Of a stretch of 64,000 bases of DNA, positions 17,754 through 39,150 are shown piece after piece. The position numbers were made by a program, and so were the translations under genes. The stretch is from Chelatococcus sp. YT9 (GTDB lineage Bacteria > Pseudomonadota > Alphaproteobacteria > Rhizobiales > Beijerinckiaceae), in NCBI RefSeq assembly GCF_018398315.1, contig NZ_JAHBRW010000001.1, positions 3,356,501-3,420,500 of the forward strand. Direction: 5' to 3'. The notes under the pieces were generated by a model. The model saw nothing but the letters and a program-made list of their open reading frames with translations. It had not been told where the DNA came from and ran no database searches. How positions within the stretch are numbered: the stretch's first letter is position 1; the number at the start of each line of letters is the position of its first letter.

Positions 17754-17829
17754 GCCCGGGTAGCTCAGTTGGTAGAGCATGCGACTGAAAATCGCAGTGT
17801 CGGTGGTTCGATTCCGCCCCCGGGCACCA
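17754..17829 (+). tRNA. tRNA-Phe (GAA)
   Basis: A 76-base cloverleaf with encoded CCA. The acceptor stem is GCCCGGG/CCCGGGC, the D arm GCTCAGTTGGTAGAGC, the anticodon stem TGCGA/TCGCA with loop CTGAAAA (anticodon GAA), and the T arm GGTGG-TTCGATT-CCGCC. Its 3' end is the integration site of the element that follows; the gene is left intact. Confidence 0.97.
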
Positions 17830-17863: not shown

Positions 17864-17974
17864 ATTGGTGGCAACGCGCCCCTGAAACCCTTCCCGCGCA
17901 AAGGCTTTGCCGTCCCTAACGGTGTTCAGGTCGTTTCAGCCATGCCTAGCTGAAGGCAGCCCAGCTCACGCATT

Positions 17975-18026
17975 TGACGGTACTTTTCGACCAGAATACC
18001 GTCACCCTGATTTTCAAATACCGTCA
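17975..18026. repeat. Left cluster of TGACGGTA octamers (putative integrase arm sites)
   Basis: TGACGGTA at 17975-17982 and its reverse complement TACCGTCA at 17997-18004 and 18019-18026, all between attL and the integrase start. Two more copies lie just inside the right end at 39206 and 39218. The position at both ends suggests integrase arm-type or excisionase binding sites; this is inference. Confidence 0.6.
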
Positions 18027-18039
18027 GGGGGTCCATTCA

Positions 18040-19230
18040 ATGTCGTTGACAGACACCGCGGTTCGCAACGCCAAGCCAACCGGTAAGGCGATCAAGCTCA
18101 CGGACAGCGGCGGCCTCTACCTCTATGTCTCGCCAACCGGTGGCAGACTGTGGCGGATGGACTACCGTCACCTTGGCAAGCGCCAAACCGCATCGTTCGG
18201 CGCATATCCGGCGGTTGGACTGGCGGACGCGCGTCGGCGACGCGACGAACTCAAGCAGCAGCTTGAACAAGGGATTGATCCAGCCGCTGCGAAACGAGCG
18301 GCGGAGCTCGCAGAGCGACATTCCGCCGCTAACACCTTCGAGGTGATTGCCGACGAGTACCTGGCAAAGCTCGCCCGGGAAGGACGAGCCGACACCACCA
18401 TGAACAAGGTCACCTGGCTCCTTGATTTTGCGCGTCCGGCGCTGGGTCGGCGGCCGATCACCCAAATCAGCGCTGCGGAAGTCCTCGAGGTGCTCCGCAA
18501 GGTGGAAAGCCGTGGGCGTTTCGAGACGGCCAAGCGCCTGCGAAGCACCATTGGCAGCGTGTTTCGCTATGCGGTCGCGACATCGAGAGCCGATAACGAC
18601 CCAACGTTCGCGTTGCAAGGCGCCCTCGCCTCGCCTCCGCCGAAGCCGAGAGCCGCTGTCACAGATCCGAAGGCATTTGGCGGCCTGCTGCGCGCGATCG
18701 ATGCCTTTGACGGCCAGGCCACGACCCATGCAGCCCTGAAACTGATGGCAGTGCTGTTTCCTCGACCAGGCGAACTTCGCATGGCCGAATGGGCTGAGTT
18801 CGACCTGGCAAAGGCAATCTGGACCGTGCCGGAGAAGCGCATGAAAATGCGGCGACCTCATCGCGTTCCGTTGCCTACGCAAGCCGTGACAACACTGACC
18901 GAGCTGCAAAAAGCTACCGGCAACGGCAAGCTCCTCTTTCCGTCCGTCAGAACGGTCCGCCGCCCGATCTCCGAGAACACGCTCAACGCCGCTCTTCGGC
19001 GGCTTGGCTACGACAAGGATCAGGCGACAGCCCACGGCTTCCGCGCCACCGCGTCCACCCTGCTCAATGAGAGCGGACTTTGGAACCCGGACGCGATCGA
19101 GCGCCAGCTGGCGCATATCGAAAACAACGACGTGCGCCGCGCCTATGCGCGCGGCGAGCATTGGGACGAGCGGGTGAGAATGATGCAGTGGTGGGCCGAT
19201 CGTTTGGACGATCTGCGCGCTGCTGTTTAA
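18040..19230 (+). CDS. int: Tyrosine integrase (DUF4102/P4 type)
   Basis: 396 residues. An N-terminal DUF4102 arm-binding domain (SLTDTAVRNAKPTGKAIKLT, GGLYLYVSPTGGRLWRMDYR) is followed by a core-binding domain and a catalytic domain. Catalytic motifs visible are FPRPGELRMAEW (Arg I), HGFRATASTLLNE (His-x-x-Arg) and the nucleophile region RRAYARGEHWDERVRMMQWW. It should integrate and excise the element at tRNA-Phe. I chose the ATG at 18040, with CAGGGGG just upstream; an in-frame start at 17974 would run through the octamer cluster. Confidence 0.95.
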   Translation: MSLTDTAVRNAKPTGKAIKLTDSGGLYLYVSPTGGRLWRMDYRHLGKRQTASFGAYPAVGLADARRRRDELKQQLEQGIDPAAAKRAAELAERHSAANTFEVIADEYLAKLAREGRADTTMNKVTWLLDFARPALGRRPITQISAAEVLEVLRKVESRGRFETAKRLRSTIGSVFRYAVATSRADNDPTFALQGALASPPPKPRAAVTDPKAFGGLLRAIDAFDGQATTHAALKLMAVLFPRPGELRMAEWAEFDLAKAIWTVPEKRMKMRRPHRVPLPTQAVTTLTELQKATGNGKLLFPSVRTVRRPISENTLNAALRRLGYDKDQATAHGFRATASTLLNESGLWNPDAIERQLAHIENNDVRRAYARGEHWDERVRMMQWWADRLDDLRAAV

Positions 19231-19318: not shown

Positions 19319-19618
19319 ATGCCCAAACGAAGGACCGAGAGCATCGAGGACCCCGACAATCCCGAATGGACCGACGCGATGTTCGCGCGCTCGAAGCCTG
19401 CGAGCGCGCTTCCGCCGGCGATCCGGAGCGCCTTTCCAAAGACCCTGCGTATGCGCCCTTTAAGCAAGAGGACGACAGAGACGGTCACGCTCGACCTCGA
19501 CAAAGAGCTCCTGGACTTCTACCGCTCCGGCGGAGAGGACTGGCAAACCCGGATCAATGACGCGCTTGTCGAGGTTATGCGCGCGGCGAGGAAGCGCGGA
19601 CGGCCTCCCAGGGAATAG
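19319..19618 (+). CDS. BrnA-type antitoxin
   Basis: 99 residues with the BrnA pattern: DPDNPEWTDAMFARSKPAS at the N-terminus and a ribbon-helix-helix-like C-terminus (TETVTLDLDKELLDFYRSGG, EDWQTRINDALVEVMR). BrnA normally neutralises the RNase toxin BrnT and represses the brnTA operon. Here only 88 bases separate it from the integrase, so no brnT fits in front of it. It has a strong RBS (AGGAGG at 19305-19310) and may be a solitary regulator, possibly of the integrase region. Confidence 0.78.
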   Translation: MPKRRTESIEDPDNPEWTDAMFARSKPASALPPAIRSAFPKTLRMRPLSKRTTETVTLDLDKELLDFYRSGGEDWQTRINDALVEVMRAARKRGRPPRE

Positions 19619-20040
19619 CGGTCGCTACCTCTCCCGCAACAGCCGCCTGCACGATCGGCTCCCGCTCATCCGGCGGCATCTGCGCCAGCGCGTCCAGCTC
19701 GACGCCCTTGTCGAGGCTCGTCCCGGCAATCCGCTGGAGGGTGTCGGGGCCGAGCGCCTTGCCGCGGCGCGCGGCTCGCTCGACCGTGTCACGGCTTTTC
19801 CCGGTAGCCCTTGCGGTGGACGTGGTGAACGCAGGTTTCAAATCCGCAATTTGCGGTTTTGATCTCCGGTCCCCACCAGCCCTTACCTCCGGATGCTCCT
19901 CCTCATACAGCCCCTTCCGGCGCGCCATGAGCCGCGCCTGGAGCGCGGGCATGAGCTTCCTGAGCGCTTGGTTCTCGTCGATCTCACTGTTTTCAGCCCA
20001 GCGACGAACGTCTGGTGGTCGGCGTTCTCTAATTGACTTT
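19575..20040 (-). pseudogene. ParB-like protein, C-terminal fragment
   Basis: On the minus strand the frame reads RRWAENSEIDENQAL, then ARRKGLYEEEHPEVRAGGDR, then RATGKSRDTVERAARRGKALG and GTSLDKGVELDALAQMPPDE. This is the central-to-C-terminal part of ParB-like proteins found in Rhizobiales phage elements. The N-terminal nuclease-like domain is missing: upstream of about 20040 the frame runs antisense to a lipoprotein gene and loses any similarity. It also overlaps the end of the brnA gene by 44 bases. I read it as a truncated relic. Confidence 0.65.
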
Positions 20041-20087
20041 GCCGTTGCCTCGCGATTGCCTCTGAGTGGGGTATCGGGGGGTAGCGC

Positions 20088-20804
20088 ATGCGTGCCGCAG
20101 CTATTGCAATCACAATCGCGATCACTATTGCCGGTTGCGGAGCCCAACAAAAACGCATCTCGACAACCGCGCCTCCCGTTCAGCCCGCGGCGGCAGTTGT
20201 TCAAACACCATCTCGTCCTTTAGGGCCTGCGGCGGGTGACATGTTCTCCGTCTCTTTCCAAAGCGGGGCGGCGAACTGCTATGGCTCCTATCAAACCCTG
20301 AACGGCGTCTCGGATCTTATCGCCCGCCTTGTCTGCGACGATGGCACTAGAGGCGTGGCAGTGGCATCGCCTCGGGGGGGCACCACAGCGCTCCTCTTCG
20401 TCGGAAATTCGACGGTGGAGGCCAAAGTGGATGGGCACCCAAGAGGGACGGGGTATATCACGTCGCTGGCGGGAGAGGATCTGGCGGATCTGGAGCGTGT
20501 CAATGCCGCCCTGGAAAGATCAAACTTGGCACCGACGTCAAGCTCTCCTCCAGTGCAGGGCGCGTCAGTCGCAGCGGCAGAACCTACTGTGATACCTGCG
20601 CCGGCAGCCGCTACGGCGGCGCCATCGACTTACGTTCCCCCTACGACCTACGGTAGCCGGCCCAGCTCGAGCAACGGCTGCGAAAGCCTTGGATGCTATG
20701 GCCAAATCAGTACCGTTACAGGTTTGCCTCGTACTAACTACGTAAGCGGGTACACAAGGAGAGACGGCACCTATGTGCGCCCGTACTATCGTTCAAGGCG
20801 ATAG
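20088..20804 (+). CDS. Putative lipoprotein
   Basis: 238 residues. The N-terminus MRAAAIAITIAITIAGCG has a short hydrophobic segment ending in a lipobox (IAGC), so it should be lipid-anchored. The middle (SFQSGAANCYGSYQTLNGVS, GTTALLFVGNSTVEAKVDGH) is beta-rich. A low-complexity Ala/Pro/Thr linker leads to a C-terminal GYTRRDGTYVRPYYRSRR, a tail seen in small bacterial envelope proteins. Function unknown; possibly phage- or element-encoded envelope modification. Confidence 0.72.
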   Translation: MRAAAIAITIAITIAGCGAQQKRISTTAPPVQPAAAVVQTPSRPLGPAAGDMFSVSFQSGAANCYGSYQTLNGVSDLIARLVCDDGTRGVAVASPRGGTTALLFVGNSTVEAKVDGHPRGTGYITSLAGEDLADLERVNAALERSNLAPTSSSPPVQGASVAAAEPTVIPAPAAATAAPSTYVPPTTYGSRPSSSNGCESLGCYGQISTVTGLPRTNYVSGYTRRDGTYVRPYYRSRR

Positions 20805-20987: not shown

Positions 20988-22490
20988 TTGCAAAAGCTCT
21001 TTCCGAATTTTCCTAAGTTTTTTCAGCGACGCTTGAAAGATGTTGGGTCCCAGTGGGGCGCGGCACCTGCCAAAATTCCATTGGACGAACTGACGGCGGC
21101 CTTCCTTCGCTTTTATCGACGGAGGCTAAAGAAGGGCGCAGTAAGTGGTGTTTATGCCAAAGTGGCGCGTGTTGGACGGAAAAGGTATGCACGCCGGAAA
21201 ACCCGCGAAATAGCAAAACGATTACGGCGCGGTGCGAGGGTACCACTGCCCAGGGCATTGCTCCTATCGAGATACAGACCTTCTCCACTGCTTACTGGAT
21301 TGTATCCCGATCGTGAGGCTAACTGGCGGCCGGTCACAAAGCGTCGTGGCAAATTAGGCTATCAAGATCTTTCGCTTAGTAATTTCTCATTGATTGACTA
21401 CCCGGCCGAGACCCTGAAAGCTATTAAGAAGCTAGCAGCCATCGAATGCGAAGCAGCGACCGCTCATCTGCACTTCGACGACGATCATTGCATAGACATT
21501 GCGCCGTATCTCGTCCTAGCGGAAATTTGGGACGATATGGCCCATGTTTTTCATGGGGGCCGTATGTCGATGCCGGTGCAGAAGGTCGTTGAAGCCGTCG
21601 GGCTGCGAAAGCCACTCGGGATGCGCCTCGAGCTTGCTAGCGACTTGAGCGACGTTTGGGCGTTTCCATTGCGGAGGAGGCGACCACCGCGGACATCCAA
21701 ATCCCCGGATCGCGATCTGGCTCCTCAGCCGAGGGAGAAGGTTTCGGACGATTTTTGCGACGCCATTGATGAGTGGCTGCTCGAGGCGGCCGAGCTTGGG
21801 CTAACCACGAGCGGCAAATCACAATTCTCAAACATTATCGGGGAACTGTTAGATAATGCTGAGCGACACAGTGATCCAGTTTCCAAGGATGGGAGCTGGT
21901 CTGTGGCCGCCTTTATGGCCAGAAGGCGCGAAGGTGGTGAAGAGGTCTTTCGTTGCCACATGGCATTCCTGTCAGTCGGAGCTTCGATTGCAGAAAGCTT
22001 GGACACGGCCGAGAAGAGAACTCAAGACGACATAGTTGCCTATGCGACGCGACATAAGCGCACCGGACAGTCAGCCGCAACTTTGGCCACATTGATCGCA
22101 TTGCAAGACGGCGTTACCCGTGACGCTGACGCCTCCGCTCATTCTAGGGGGGGCGTTGGATTTCAGGACGTTTTCGAATTTGTAAGTGGTCTTGGGGCTA
22201 CGACCGAGCCGAACAGGGAGCCGCGCATAACGATTGTGTCAGGCTCCTCTTGCATTCAGCTCCGCCCCCCGTACCTACTAGGAAGGCGAGGTGACGCGTT
22301 CAGGCCTCGTGTGTTATGGTGCAACGCGAACAATAGCCCGGATGAGCCGCCCGATCGCCAGTTCGTGTTCGACCTGGAAGATCGTTTCGCGGGGACCGTC
22401 ATTGGGGTGTCTTTTGTGCTGGATGTAGAGTTTTTGAAGGCGGCGGTCGATGTTGGAGATCAAGCTGAGCGAACTGACGGGCAACGGTGA
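20988..22490 (+). CDS. GHKL-type ATPase-domain protein (candidate defence or signalling system, gene 1)
   Basis: 500 residues. Residues 1-100 are very basic (RRLKKG, RKRYARRKTREIAKRLRRG), suggesting nucleic-acid contact. Residues 155-225 resemble a STAS-like or MlaB-like strand-helix pattern (AHLHFDDDHCIDIAPYLVLAEIWDDM). Residues 255-480 look like a HATPase domain: N-box IIGELLDNAERHSD near 283-296, a degenerate G1-like segment FLSVGASIAESL, a G2-like SRGGVGFQDVF, and FAGTVIGVSFVLD at the end. No phosphoacceptor His domain or receiver is present, so it is not an ordinary sensor kinase. The start is TTG at 20988, following an in-frame stop at 20970. It overlaps the next gene by 41 bases. Base composition is AT-richer than the chromosome. 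Confidence 0.72.
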   Translation: MQKLFPNFPKFFQRRLKDVGSQWGAAPAKIPLDELTAAFLRFYRRRLKKGAVSGVYAKVARVGRKRYARRKTREIAKRLRRGARVPLPRALLLSRYRPSPLLTGLYPDREANWRPVTKRRGKLGYQDLSLSNFSLIDYPAETLKAIKKLAAIECEAATAHLHFDDDHCIDIAPYLVLAEIWDDMAHVFHGGRMSMPVQKVVEAVGLRKPLGMRLELASDLSDVWAFPLRRRRPPRTSKSPDRDLAPQPREKVSDDFCDAIDEWLLEAAELGLTTSGKSQFSNIIGELLDNAERHSDPVSKDGSWSVAAFMARRREGGEEVFRCHMAFLSVGASIAESLDTAEKRTQDDIVAYATRHKRTGQSAATLATLIALQDGVTRDADASAHSRGGVGFQDVFEFVSGLGATTEPNREPRITIVSGSSCIQLRPPYLLGRRGDAFRPRVLWCNANNSPDEPPDRQFVFDLEDRFAGTVIGVSFVLDVEFLKAAVDVGDQAERTDGQR

Positions 22491-22779
22491 GGTTCGGAAC
22501 CTATCGGGTCACGAGCGCGGTCTCGCTGCGCGCAAAAAGTTTCAGCTCGAGGCAGCAGACGAGCGTGGTGAAGAGGTGCTCGTAGTCGTACCCCATGAGG
22601 TCTATACGCTTACCCCCTCCTTCTTCCAGGGTATGTTTGCTGAGAGCGTGCGCCGTGCTGCATCTCGTGAAAAATTTTTAGCTCGATATCGCTTTGATGC
22701 CGATCCTGTTGTCTTGCGGCAAGTCGAGAGCGGCATAAGTGCGTCGCTGATGCGTAGAGGCTCCATTCTAGCTGCATGA
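22450..22779 (+). CDS. STAS-like DUF4325 protein (cassette gene 2)
   Basis: 109 residues. The C-terminal part has the DUF4325 pattern: VVVPHEVYTLTPSFFQGMFAE followed by a charged helix and a predicted strand. DUF4325 has a STAS-like fold and is often encoded beside a HATPase-domain protein, reminiscent of anti-sigma/anti-anti-sigma partner switching. The gene starts inside the ATPase gene (41-base overlap) and its stop overlaps the next start by 4 bases, so the three proteins are very probably translated as a coupled unit. Confidence 0.75.
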   Translation: MLEIKLSELTGNGEVRNLSGHERGLAARKKFQLEAADERGEEVLVVVPHEVYTLTPSFFQGMFAESVRRAASREKFLARYRFDADPVVLRQVESGISASLMRRGSILAA

Positions 22780-23321
22780 CGTCCGGCGCCCCTGAAACTC
22801 ACTCGCTCTGGTTGCAAGCTATCCCTTGGGCGGCGACATGGCTTGGATTGATTGTTACGTTCATTTTCAACGTAATAAATTACAGGCGGACGAGTAAAAT
22901 CAGGGACGATAGCGTTAAGCTTGATGAGTTCAAGAGGATGCGAACGCCAGTGGACTTGGCACTCGGCCTGCTCGGTGAGTGCCGCCTAACACTTCGGAGC
23001 CTTGAGGCCTCCGGAGCGCTAGTAGATGCTGTAAGAGACACAGCTGGTGATATCAATCGAGAGGTTTCAGTCGCATATAACCGCCTGGAACATGCCTTCA
23101 CAAGATTTGATGAAAGCGAATTCGCCCTAGGATGCGATTGGGTACAGTCTCTCCAAGATCCTTGGGAAGCTTTTGTAGCTGAAATGGATCGGGTATATGC
23201 CCCTCACAAATCTCTTGATCAAACTAAGGAAGTTATCCGAAAGGCGGCTGATCAGCTCGGCGTATTTATTTCCACCGTCAATAACCGTCTAGACAAAGAG
23301 CTGAAGAGATATACTGGTTAG
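22776..23321 (+). CDS. Single-pass membrane protein (cassette gene 3)
   Basis: 181 residues. One N-terminal membrane span (WAATWLGLIVTFIFNVIN, about residues 17-34) is followed by RRTSKIRDDSVKLDEFKRMR and a long helical cytoplasmic part (EASGALVDAVRDTAGDINRE, DQTKEVIRKAADQLGVFIST). No enzymatic motif is seen. ATGA overlap with the DUF4325 gene. A membrane-anchored effector or sensor for the ATPase/STAS pair is an inference from gene order. One stretch inside it (22861-22920) has only 24 G/C in 60 bases, well below the surroundings. Confidence 0.7.
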   Translation: MTSGAPETHSLWLQAIPWAATWLGLIVTFIFNVINYRRTSKIRDDSVKLDEFKRMRTPVDLALGLLGECRLTLRSLEASGALVDAVRDTAGDINREVSVAYNRLEHAFTRFDESEFALGCDWVQSLQDPWEAFVAEMDRVYAPHKSLDQTKEVIRKAADQLGVFISTVNNRLDKELKRYTG

Positions 23322-23499: not shown

Positions 23500-23850
23500 C
23501 TAGGACGATCTGCGCGAGAAGCCGGGCGGTCTAATAGGCAGATAGCCGGTGAACTCGGCGTCGACGATAAGACCGTAGGTAGCGCCAGGGCGCGGCTACA
23601 AGGACGTGCGGAAATTCCGCACGTCGCGACCGTCACCGACACCAAAGGCAGGAGGCAGCCGGCGCGAAAACCCAAGCCTCCGGCTCCTCCGACCAACGTC
23701 ACCGCATTCCCCGCGCGCAGCTCGGGCGAGCGCCCGATAGAGGAGAGAGCGCCGCGTCATGACAAACGGCTCGACGATGGTAATATCCCGCCGTCCTCGC
23801 TCCCCCGAGGGCAGGCCCCGGCCGCGAGATCGCTTCCCCGATCAAGCTAG
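23500..23850 (+). pseudogene. ParB-like protein fragment, frameshifted
   Basis: A plus-strand frame reads DDLREKPGG up to about 23530, then in another frame RQIAGELGVDDKTVGSARAR, LQGRAEIPHVATVTDTKGRR and QPARKPKPPAPPTNV. The pattern of helix-turn-helix, then a short basic linker with GR and ARKP, matches the part of Rhizobiales ParB-like element proteins that follows the partition domain. There is a stop at 23502-23504 and a frame change, and no start, so it is a relic. Confidence 0.55.
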
Positions 23851-26669: not shown

Positions 26670-26954
26670 ATGATGACAGCATCCCAATGCCGCGCCGCCA
26701 GGGCGCTCCTCAATTGGTCGCAGGTCGACCTCGCAAACACCGCGCAGGTCGGCATCTCGACCGTGCGGACCTTCGAGGCCGATACGGCGATCCCCCGGCG
26801 GGCGACGCTCGCCATGATGGTGCAAGCGTTCGAGAAGCACGGCATCGTCTTTCTCGCAGCCGGCGACCCGGCGCTTGGCGAAGGCGTCAGCCTGCGCCAG
26901 AGTGCCGATGAGGGACTGAAGCCTGAACAGCTCAACGCTGAGAACGACGGGTGA
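26670..26954 (+). CDS. XRE-family helix-turn-helix regulator
   Basis: About 94 residues starting MMTASQCRAARALLNWSQVD. The HTH runs from ARALLNWSQVDLANTAQVGI to STVRTFEADTAIPRRATLAM, followed by a short C-terminal arm (FEKHGIVFLAAGDP). This compact XRE type is frequent in Rhizobiales. Its stop codon overlaps the hicA start by 4 bases, so it probably regulates or is co-produced with the HicAB locus. An upstream in-frame start at 26628 is less likely. Confidence 0.85.
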   Translation: MMTASQCRAARALLNWSQVDLANTAQVGISTVRTFEADTAIPRRATLAMMVQAFEKHGIVFLAAGDPALGEGVSLRQSADEGLKPEQLNAENDG

Positions 26955-27194
26955 GCAAGCGCCTGGAGCAGATGCGCCGCAACCCGCAATCCGACTGGTC
27001 GATCGCCGATGTCGAGGCGGTCTGCCGGGAGCATGGTATAATCTGTGCGCCATCGCGATCAGGCAGCTCTCACTACAAGGTGACGCATGATGCGATGCCG
27101 GAGATCCTGACCGTGCCTTTCAAGCGACCAATCAAGCCGGTATATATATGAAAGCTCCGTCGCATTCATCGACGCGGTAAGGAGGTCCCAATGA
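26951..27194 (+). pseudogene. hicA: HicA toxin, frame broken at a TA tract
   Basis: The GTG at 26951 opens a HicA protein: SKRLEQMRRNPQSDWSIADV, CREHGIICAPSRSGSSHYKV (catalytic His in SSHYKV), FKRPIKPVYI, then a stop at 27149-27151. The missing HicA C-terminus is present one frame over: ESSVAFIDAVRRSQ, ending in a TGA at 27192-27194 that overlaps the hicB ATG. The two frames meet at TATATATA (27141-27148): one extra TA would restore full length. HicA is an mRNA interferase with a double-stranded-RNA-binding fold. As read, the toxin lacks its last helix and may be inactive; slippage or a +1 ribosomal shift could restore it. Confidence 0.75.
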
Positions 27195-27412
27195 CCCGTC
27201 TTGAATACCCGGTCGTTGTCGAGCCACTTTCCGCTGAGGACGGTGGGGGCTTCGCGGCGATCGTCCCGGATCTGCCAGGCTGCATGAGCGATGGTGAGAC
27301 GCCGGAAGAGGCGATCGTCAACGTGCAGGACGCAATCCTGACCTGGATCGAAGCTGCACGCGGCATGGGCAGACCTATTCCCCGGCCATCGCGGCATCTG
27401 GCGATAGCCTGA
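27191..27412 (+). CDS. hicB: HicB family antitoxin
   Basis: 73 residues: EYPVVVEPLSAEDGGGFAAI, VPDLPGCMSDGETPEEAIVN and VQDAILTWIEAARGMGRPIP are the standard HicB RNase-H-like partial fold. There is no C-terminal DNA-binding domain beyond PSRHLAIA, so repression may be left to the XRE protein. A strong RBS AAGGAGG sits 5 bases upstream. The start overlaps the ancestral hicA stop. Confidence 0.9.
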   Translation: MTRLEYPVVVEPLSAEDGGGFAAIVPDLPGCMSDGETPEEAIVNVQDAILTWIEAARGMGRPIPRPSRHLAIA

Positions 27413-37451: not shown

Positions 37452-38180
37452 TTAACAGGACTTGAAAGTCAAGACCGTTTCGACGAGTTGGGCGTATTTG
37501 CGCCCCGCAGCAACGCGTAGAGCAGAAAAAGCGTCAGAACGTGTACGTTTTTCCAACTCTACCTGCCGCAAGAACTCCTGCCGGGTAGCCTCATCAGCCT
37601 TCGCCCAGGCGTCGAGCAGCATCTGGAGTATCGAGGGCGTCTCAGCCGGCGGCGGAGCGATCCGCTCCTCGGTACCGCGGCGGATCGCGGACACCTGCAA
37701 TTCCGGCGTAGGCTCTCTGGCGGCGGCGAGAAGTACCGTCTGATTACCGGCCACCCCGCGCTTCCGCGCCTCGGCTTTCGCCTCCGGCGCAAGCGCGGCG
37801 ACCTTGACGGCGCGTTCGACGGTTTGCCGGGTCATGCCGAGATCTTTGGCGGCTGCTCTGATGCCCTTATTGCGCGGTTGCTTCCCGCCAGGAGGTGGCC
37901 CAACTTGGGCCACCTTATCCGCCAGCGTCCGTTTGCGCTCATCACGCAACGCGATCCATGATGCGATCAGCTCCCCGCGTTCGATATCATCGATCTGCCG
38001 GCGGTGCAGGTTCTCGGCGATCTCGGCGAGCTTGCCGATGGTCGATGCGTCGGGCGCATCGCCATCCAGCGGCGGCAAGAGTATAGCCGGGATCTCAGGC
38101 CATCCCAGCTCAATCGCTGCCCATAGGCGCCTTTCTTCCGGTCACAGGTGCCGTCAGGCTGCCGCACTGGATCTAGCGCT
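37452..38180 (-). pseudogene. ParB-like protein, 5'-truncated and frameshifted
   Basis: The main frame reads PEERRLWAAIELGWPEIPAI, LLPPLDGDAPDASTIGKLAE, IAENLHRRQIDDIERGELIA, a helix-turn-helix (GIRAAAKDLGMTRQTVERAV) and a helical tail. A stop precedes PEERR, but another frame just upstream reads KALDPVRQPDGT, which is the strand before the ParB nuclease box (PDGT...GERRL). So the gene is frameshifted near 38150 and its first domain is replaced by the DUF4238 gene on the other strand. A TTG at 38078 could still give 208 residues carrying the HTH. Confidence 0.65.
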
Positions 38181-38223
38181 TTTATGGCCCGCAGGTATGC
38201 TGGTGGGTAGGGGGAAAGCGCAC

Positions 38224-39150
38224 ATGACGGCAATCGAGCCATTGCCCTGGAGGCATCATTTCGTACCGGCGTTCTATTTGCGACGCTGGGCCAATAAGGA
38301 CGGAAAGCTCGTTGAGTTCAGCAAGCCCTATGGCGATCAAGTTAAAGCCAAAAGACGACATCCTGAAGAGACCGGCTTTGATGCGCACGTCTACAATGTC
38401 CGCACCGATAGCGGCGATATCGTGCTTTGCCTTGAGAATGATTTTTTCAAAGAACTGGATACTCTCGCCAGCGACGCTCTTCGTCTCATTGAAGATGACT
38501 TCCATAAAACAAGCAGCAACTATAAACTTAGAAGCGCTTGGTCGAGATTTATATTGTCGATGATATCGCGACACCCCGAAGATGTTACAGAGATGGGCAA
38601 TCGCTGGCTGGACCGCATGCTAGATGTTTCCGATAAGTTTCAGATTGAATACAGCGCAGAGAGATCACCCACGGATCCTGGCGAGTTTCGCGAGTGGATT
38701 GCAGGCTTGGAGAAAAGCGAACACGCTCGGCACGCGCTTGAGTTGCAGGCAGAGATGATCGACAGCCCTGTACTCGGCACGATCCTCAATGACATGGAAT
38801 GGTCGGTCATCGAGACCACCGGAGCCGCACACCCCCTTCTGACAAGCGATCGGCCGGTCTCTCGCGTAGGCGCTCTTACCAGCCGAGACGCCTTGATCGT
38901 ATTGCCCATTGGCCCCAGCAGGTTCTTCGTAGCAACTAATGATGCTCGCCACGGACGTTCTATCCGGCAGCTGGGAGCATCAGGCAAAGTTAGGGACTTA
39001 AATCGAGAGACAGTGCAGCGAGCGGTTCGGTTTGTGTATGGCCCCGATGACGCACAACTCGTTTTTGTGCAAAGGCACATGGGGACCTTTCAGCTGCCGT
39101 CACGCTTCGTAGGAGCGCCAAGTCACGCGAGCCGGCGAAGCGCTCGCTAG
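38224..39150 (+). CDS. DUF4238 protein
   Basis: 308 residues. DUF4238 start PWRHHFVPAFYLRRWANKDG, with the conserved HH-VP-YLR-W pattern, then RHPEETGFDAHVYNV and later LLTSDRPVSRV and VLPIGPSRFF. DUF4238 proteins are of unknown biochemistry and frequently sit on mobile islands. The gene is AT-richer than the neighbouring chromosome and is the last gene before the right end, a usual cargo position. It starts about 45 bases from the truncated end of the ParB-like relic. Confidence 0.8.
   Translation: MTAIEPLPWRHHFVPAFYLRRWANKDGKLVEFSKPYGDQVKAKRRHPEETGFDAHVYNVRTDSGDIVLCLENDFFKELDTLASDALRLIEDDFHKTSSNYKLRSAWSRFILSMISRHPEDVTEMGNRWLDRMLDVSDKFQIEYSAERSPTDPGEFREWIAGLEKSEHARHALELQAEMIDSPVLGTILNDMEWSVIETTGAAHPLLTSDRPVSRVGALTSRDALIVLPIGPSRFFVATNDARHGRSIRQLGASGKVRDLNRETVQRAVRFVYGPDDAQLVFVQRHMGTFQLPSRFVGAPSHASRRSAR

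Follow-up and report, generated by a model that had tools for sequence, protein, structure and literature searches.

The cassette and its genomic setting

Three genes on the + strand form a compact cassette in the window, the whole stretch of 64,000 nucleotides from Chelatococcus sp. YT9 that was analysed here. Gene 1 and gene 2 overlap by 41 bases and gene 2 and gene 3 by 4, an arrangement that the initial annotation of the locus had recognised and that the coordinates of the open reading frames (ORFs) confirm. The genes (K, S and M for short) and their neighbours are:

17754..17829, + strand: tRNA-Phe, where the element presumably integrated
17974..19230, + strand: tyrosine integrase of the element (Pfam Phage_integrase)
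19319-19618, + strand: BrnA antitoxin gene (Pfam), 5' of the cassette
19575-20204, - strand: ParB-like fragment (PHROGs, E 2e-8), before the cassette
20088..20804, + strand: signal-peptide-like ORF (by eye), directly 5' of the cassette, with no Pfam family
20988..22490, + strand: gene 1 (K), TTG start, 500 aa
22450..22779, + strand: gene 2 (S), 109 aa
22776..23321, + strand: gene 3 (M), 181 aa
24210-25772, - strand: large serine recombinase (PHROGs integrase, E 2e-84), just 3' of the cassette

The cassette had been called AT-richer than its surroundings, and its GC content of 0.539, against 0.621 for the window, is indeed the lowest in the window for a stretch of that length (0 of 617 segments of 2,334 bp, taken in steps of 100 bases, are as low). 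It had further been placed as cargo in a tRNA-Phe element, between the element's own genes and a decayed ParB-like fragment; the tRNA, the integrase and the fragment are all present, but the fragment lies before the cassette. A possible second ParB-like remnant, a single open frame picked out by eye, follows it at about 23500-23850 (+ strand). No second copy of the tRNA end, which would mark the far attachment site, was found within the window, so the far end of the element is not fixed. The genes 3' of the cassette are those of a prophage, with matches in PHROGs to a large serine recombinase, a head maturation protease, a tail tape measure protein and a replication-type helicase, and the recombinase together with the head protease and tape measure genes probably represents a second element or prophage abutting the tRNA-Phe element.

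Other features of the region deserve mention in their own right. A HicA-like gene (below cut-off) and a HicB-like one occupy 26951-27412 (+ strand), and on the far side of the prophage region lies a gene for a DUF4238 protein (37804-39150, + strand; Pfam E 1e-32) for which PADLOC had no match at E 0.01; among the genes of the P2 hotspot, one for a DUF4238 protein resists T7, according to the available part of Rousset et al. (2022, PMC9122126). Secreted or lipoprotein-like ORFs, again recognised by eye, also precede the cassette at three related loci (L012 4372-5103, L014 6823-7290 and L015 6299-7141), their likeness to that of the window being one of position and type only; of these four ORFs, the three that were scanned belong to no Pfam family, and L016 has no such ORF.

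Domains of the three proteins

Gene 1 had been credited with the N-box and G2-like box of a GHKL ATPase and a strongly basic N-terminus, and with neither a His-phosphotransfer nor a receiver domain, and each of these points was borne out. The N-box reads E-L-L-D-N-A-E-R-H and the G2-like stretch HSRGGVGFQD, and residues E286, L288-A291 and H294 do not vary in alignments A4 and A6. The basic N-terminus extends over residues ~1-110 (net charge +25 in residues 1-100) and is followed at ~122-205 by a STAS-like alpha/beta region of low confidence, in which the predicted model has beta-alpha repeats at 126-203 and which is spanned by homology to the kinases of a second, short-kinase branch described below. 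Residues ~222-479 form a SpoIIAB-like GHKL domain whose top structural match is SpoIIAB itself. Pfam gave no HisKA, receiver or HATPase match, NCBIfam no phospho-acceptor His domain, and the sequence profile no relative in the PDB; when genes 1 and 3 of the cassette were compared with PHROGs, gene 1 drew one weak match, phrog_3364 (E 0.0008), a family of unknown function. A two-component sensor histidine kinase can be set aside on the missing HisKA and receiver domains, the SpoIIAB-like fold and the DUF4325-like partner.

SpoIIAB and SpoIIAA, like RsbW and RsbV, are anti-sigma serine kinases and their antagonists. The likeness to such partner switches that had been drawn from the window gains from the structural match of gene 1 and from an invariant serine in gene 2. 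Differences from SpoIIAB and RsbW are the additional basic and STAS-like part of gene 1, a membrane protein as third partner, and the want of any annotated sigma factor gene in the record regions read, where DNA-binding genes (ParB, LytTR, response regulator) are present.

The DUF4325 pattern ascribed to gene 2 did not stand by sequence and did stand by fold. Pfam DUF4325 (PF14213) failed to match the protein, a six-frame search of the genome likewise gave none at E 0.001, and the top Pfam row, GATase_7 (a model of glutamine amidotransferases, E 0.0036), stayed below cut-off. The fold of gene 2 (model pLDDT 92.1, pTM 0.83), by contrast, is matched by structures predicted for viral DUF4325 proteins at E 1.3e-5 and 2.6e-4 with TM 0.79 and 0.82. 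Profile comparison with the DUF4325 proteins of the short branch gave a weak match (E 0.00045, probability 33) that is nearly full-length and lines up the serines; with a wider alignment it was weaker still (E 0.025, probability 2). By sequence profile gene 2 has no relative in the PDB, where DUF4325 proteins find a weak STAS row at most (E 0.57); by fold nothing stands out there, an uninformative comparison in which an absent STAS row is not counter-evidence to a STAS fold. In the predicted structure Ser57, the candidate phosphoacceptor, sits at the N-terminal end of the helix 56-70.

Gene 3 consists of a hydrophobic stretch and a helical protein. The single hydrophobic stretch, at residues ~13-34 (placed at 13-31 by one measure, and with its peak at 16-34 by another), is followed by basic residues and then by ~150 more, in agreement with the single-pass topology first proposed. 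Judged by sequence, gene 3 is the most divergent of the three genes: identity to L012, the nearest relative found, is 51% for gene 1, 61% for gene 2 and 31% for gene 3.

A sparse but far-flung cassette

The three genes, proposed as a system from the window, do occur together in other genomes, and there too in cargo positions. A tblastn search of plasmids with gene 1 returned 6 records in four genera, and in each of the four regions opened two further genes come after the match, the first of them small; all are annotated as 'hypothetical' save the gene 1 of Providencia, which was unannotated. Among IMG/VR sequences, 8 loci were found by a profile of the plasmid relatives and 21 by a wider alignment, 22 together. 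Genome samples, which overlap each other, yielded little beyond the genome of the window itself: 2 of 398 at the level of the phylum, one of them with a fragment of gene 1 only, and 5 of 385 at the level of the class, three of window type and two of the short branch. Searched with a single sequence, 297 genomes of the order yielded the window's own genome and two matches (L003, L004) that contain internal stops, overlap other ORFs and are probably due to chance, as probably is L002, the only match of a single-protein search of genome contigs, which lies inside a restriction-type-helicase-like ORF. No match was found for the gene 1 of the window or of Pantoea in GenBank phages by tblastn, or for L016 in E. 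coli genomes. A plasmid of Spirosoma (Bacteroidota) carries the cassette, and 33 of 5,426 complete E. coli genomes match that of L022, 31 of them over at least 80% of the query, with identities of 99% or more in 21 and of 60-80% in 12. The cassette is sparse but far-flung, as cargo is.

All 27 distinct window-type loci have gene 1, gene 2 and gene 3 in this order on one strand, at spacings of -41 to +28 bases, and in all 27 gene 2 contains x-S-[FY], the serine corresponding to Ser57 of the window. Loci with genes 1 and 2 identical to those of another were left out of this count (L023, L024 and L025, identical to L022; L027, to L026; L029, to L028), as was L045/L011, where no more of gene 1 is present than its last 73 residues. 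Since the three-gene order recurs in every one of these loci, the cassette is more than chance. By a crude test of hydropathy (a 19-residue stretch with a mean of at least 1.5), 26 of the 27 third genes encode a hydrophobic stretch, compared with 40 of 146 ORFs of like length in the flanks, a control that includes spurious ORFs. In a few loci hydropathy does not peak in the N-terminal helix: the peak falls at residue 91 in L013 and 161 in L015, at or near the start in L005, L021, L032 and L043, and reaches only 1.36 in L042.

A second branch, with shorter kinases, was found in two genomes of the class sample, three plasmids and two phage records, where a small second gene comes after a kinase of 276-377 aa (the range of the seven in alignment A10). 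A profile of this branch matched 11 of the 398 genomes; of the 8 inspected, 7 have a third gene, and none was found in the available stretch of L058. The cassettes counted are L038, L039 and L046-L057, 14 loci in all, with L058 (K and S, third gene not found) left out and L059-L061 outside the inspection; 13 of their third genes encode a hydrophobic stretch and all 14 second genes keep the serine. The branch resembles the window cassette in its K-S-M order, its DUF4325 protein, its small membrane protein and its homologous kinase (E 1.3e-12), and differs in that the kinase is shorter, gene 2 passes Pfam DUF4325 (2 of 2 scanned: L038, E 4e-14; L039, E 1.5e-14) and gene 3 cannot be aligned, the profile comparison of gene 3 between branches being not significant. 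The kinases of L038 and L039 match HATPase models just below cut-off, and a sequence search of the PDB with the short-branch kinase profile brings up RsbW at E 0.0023 and SpoIIAB at about 0.013. Its two matches in GenBank phages include Marinobacter phage AS1 (L049 4567-6493), in which the cassette lies near a Cro/CI-type regulator gene and its three genes are annotated as hypothetical; as a sequenced phage, AS1 offers a natural test object for the cassette.

Comparison with known systems

The cassette is real, conserved and absent from the libraries scanned. For the three window proteins Pfam and NCBIfam returned nothing above their curated cut-offs, and PADLOC-DB 2.0.0 gave no match at E 10. 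PADLOC found none at E 1 for L014 and two short-branch loci, and nine proteins of L022, L028 and L032, which lie in the P2 hotspot discussed below, drew two weak PDC matches from version 2.0.0 (E 0.031 and 0.013), none convincing. The titles and abstract starts consulted, all of open-licence papers and so no proof of absence, contain no description of a K-S-M cassette; the GHKL protein of PMC12137116 is, in the part of that paper available, a Shedu nuclease. The initial description as an undescribed system holds with respect to Pfam, NCBIfam and PADLOC, but the kinase-substrate logic has been published as VapKSC, with another third gene, and the hotspot in which the E. coli relatives lie has been surveyed by Rousset et al.

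VapKSC, as presented in the accessible part of Chambers et al. (EMBO J 2026, PMC13373217), is a three-gene, toxin-antitoxin-like anti-phage operon of kinase, STAS protein and effector, in which a phosphomimic of VapS releases the PIN toxin and which protects E. coli against one phage. The same part of the paper describes CapK as activated by ssDNA and as phosphorylating a serine in the STAS protein CapS, proposes the same for VapK, for which an in vitro test was not possible, and links CapK-CapS, a DNA-damage-responsive transcription switch, to immune operons (PMC13373217). The accessions given for VapK, VapS and CapK are WP_135559716, WP_135559717 and WP_001567866. Set side by side by description, VapKSC and the window cassette share their order and the GHKL domain of the kinase. 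A STAS part ahead of that domain, of low confidence in the window, may be a further likeness, and so may a second protein that is small, of STAS type and conserved at a Ser/Thr, gene 2 of the window keeping its serine and being 'STAS-like' by its DUF4325 fold. They part at the third gene, which is a PIN-domain RNase in VapKSC and a single-pass membrane protein in the window, where Pfam PIN matched neither this gene 3 nor those of L005, L006 and L008. By analogy and domain homology, the first two roles would be those of VapKSC; the logic of kinase, STAS protein and effector is already known from it, and a membrane protein in third place sets the window cassette apart.

The likeness to CapK-CapS, also a GHKL kinase with a STAS substrate (the phospho-serine being that of CapS), raises the alternative that the cassette serves regulation by the mobile element, with a SpoIIAB/SpoIIAA-like pair controlling lysogeny or host transcription and gene 3 as its anchor. 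CapS is a transcriptional repressor with a winged helix, whereas gene 2 has, after its core, a single helix (86-108 of 109 residues in the model) and no room for a winged helix; nor does an annotated immune operon directly follow gene 3 in the regions read, although an HNH endonuclease gene lies 264 bases downstream in L008. We regard such a regulatory module as quite improbable.

Cargo positions and the P2 hotspot

In 10 of the 22 IMG/VR loci (L020-L025, L028, L030, L032 and L033, of which L022-L025 are near-identical) the cassette lies between the P2 portal gene Q and the replication gene A, and in L029 Q is visible before the sequence ends. The naming of Q and A rests on the E. coli annotations 'phage portal protein' and 'replication endonuclease'; in the single E. 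coli region opened, part of a P2-type prophage, portal, three hypothetical proteins and replication endonuclease follow one another. The K-S-M proteins of E. coli, of the strain H9Ecoli type, are WP_000723541, WP_000781351 and WP_000484450. In L014 and L018 the cassette stands between repressor-like and integrase-like genes (by eye) that are homologous between the two loci, and the remaining IMG/VR loci have other contexts or contexts outside those read. The Q-A region is a hotspot of anti-phage systems that also houses partition systems and a toxin, and one of its unnamed systems, of three genes with 'no clear predicted domain', protects against P1 (Rousset et al. 2022, PMC9122126, in the part available). 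This is presumably the Rst_3HP of DefenseFinder, which occurs mostly on prophages in the part of PMC9090908 consulted. The three-gene system of Rousset et al. and K-S-M have been likened by description, both having three genes without recognised domains in the same hotspot; were they the same, defence would already have been demonstrated and the mechanism would be the new part.

These positions bear on whether the cassette merely serves its carriers, as a toxin-antitoxin-type addiction module that keeps plasmids and prophages and has no real anti-phage role. The cassette is found on several plasmids, lies near ParA/ParB-type genes in two of the first four regions opened (L006, L008), and has a toxin-antitoxin-like counterpart in VapKSC (PMC13373217, as excerpted). 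A sensing kinase exceeds the needs of plain addiction, however, and the P2 Q-A hotspot favours cargo directed against other phages, though plasmid-partition cargo occurs there too; selfish stabilisation therefore appears unlikely, if somewhat less so than a purely regulatory role.

Gene 3 as output or input

The strongest rival to an effector role makes gene 3 the input: a membrane sensor that would perceive a change in the envelope (phage adsorption, superinfection or DNA injection) and pass it through gene 2 to gene 1, with the output on transcription or a host target. Classical partner switches commonly take membrane or stressosome input, which speaks for this reading, as does the build of gene 3 in many IMG/VR prophages and plasmids of gammaproteobacteria, where a signal-peptide-like start and a variable stretch leave room before a helix beginning at residue 48-163. 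There is no such room for an outer domain where the helix begins by residue 16, as in the window and L044, or by residue 18, as in 11 of the 14 short-branch loci (it starts at 31-53 in the other three). The third position is moreover that of the toxin in VapKSC, and no sigma factor gene is annotated in the regions read, though DNA-binding genes are there. We consider a sensor role for gene 3 unlikely, while giving it more weight than either of the two preceding alternatives.

A putative partner switch acting at the membrane

It seems to us an even call whether the cassette is a partner-switching module, probably anti-phage or toxin-antitoxin-like, carried by prophages and plasmids, in which the kinase phosphorylates gene 2 and thereby frees gene 3. 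In the resting state, the small STAS-like protein of gene 2 would keep the membrane protein of gene 3 inactive. Upon infection, a signal, most likely a nucleic acid such as ssDNA, may bind to gene 1 at its basic N-terminus and STAS-like part and switch on its SpoIIAB-like kinase domain; such a signal is suggested by the basic N-terminus and the precedent of CapK, ssDNA activation being a feature of CapK that has been proposed for VapK and is extended here by analogy. By the example of its relatives, the kinase would act on gene 2 with Ser57 as acceptor, upon which the partners would separate. Gene 3, released from the restraint that we infer for gene 2, could then act at the inner membrane through depolarisation, permeabilisation or growth arrest, and membrane damage of this kind would stop the phage at the expense of the infected cell.

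Protection of bacteria, or of their mobile elements, against viruses is probably the role of the cassette, putative as it is and well motivated. Slightly less assured than the module itself is the wider proposal that K-S-M constitutes an unnamed, far-flung anti-phage class, spread over Pseudomonadota, Bacteroidota and P2-type E. coli prophages, in which a SpoIIAB-like kinase that senses infection would set free a single-pass membrane effector by phosphorylating a DUF4325 protein. If this is true, DUF4325 proteins would acquire a role, the partner-switching logic of sporulation would extend to membrane-acting defence or toxin modules and, together with VapKSC, kinase/STAS partner switching would emerge as a general layer of control in bacterial immunity, with interchangeable effectors.
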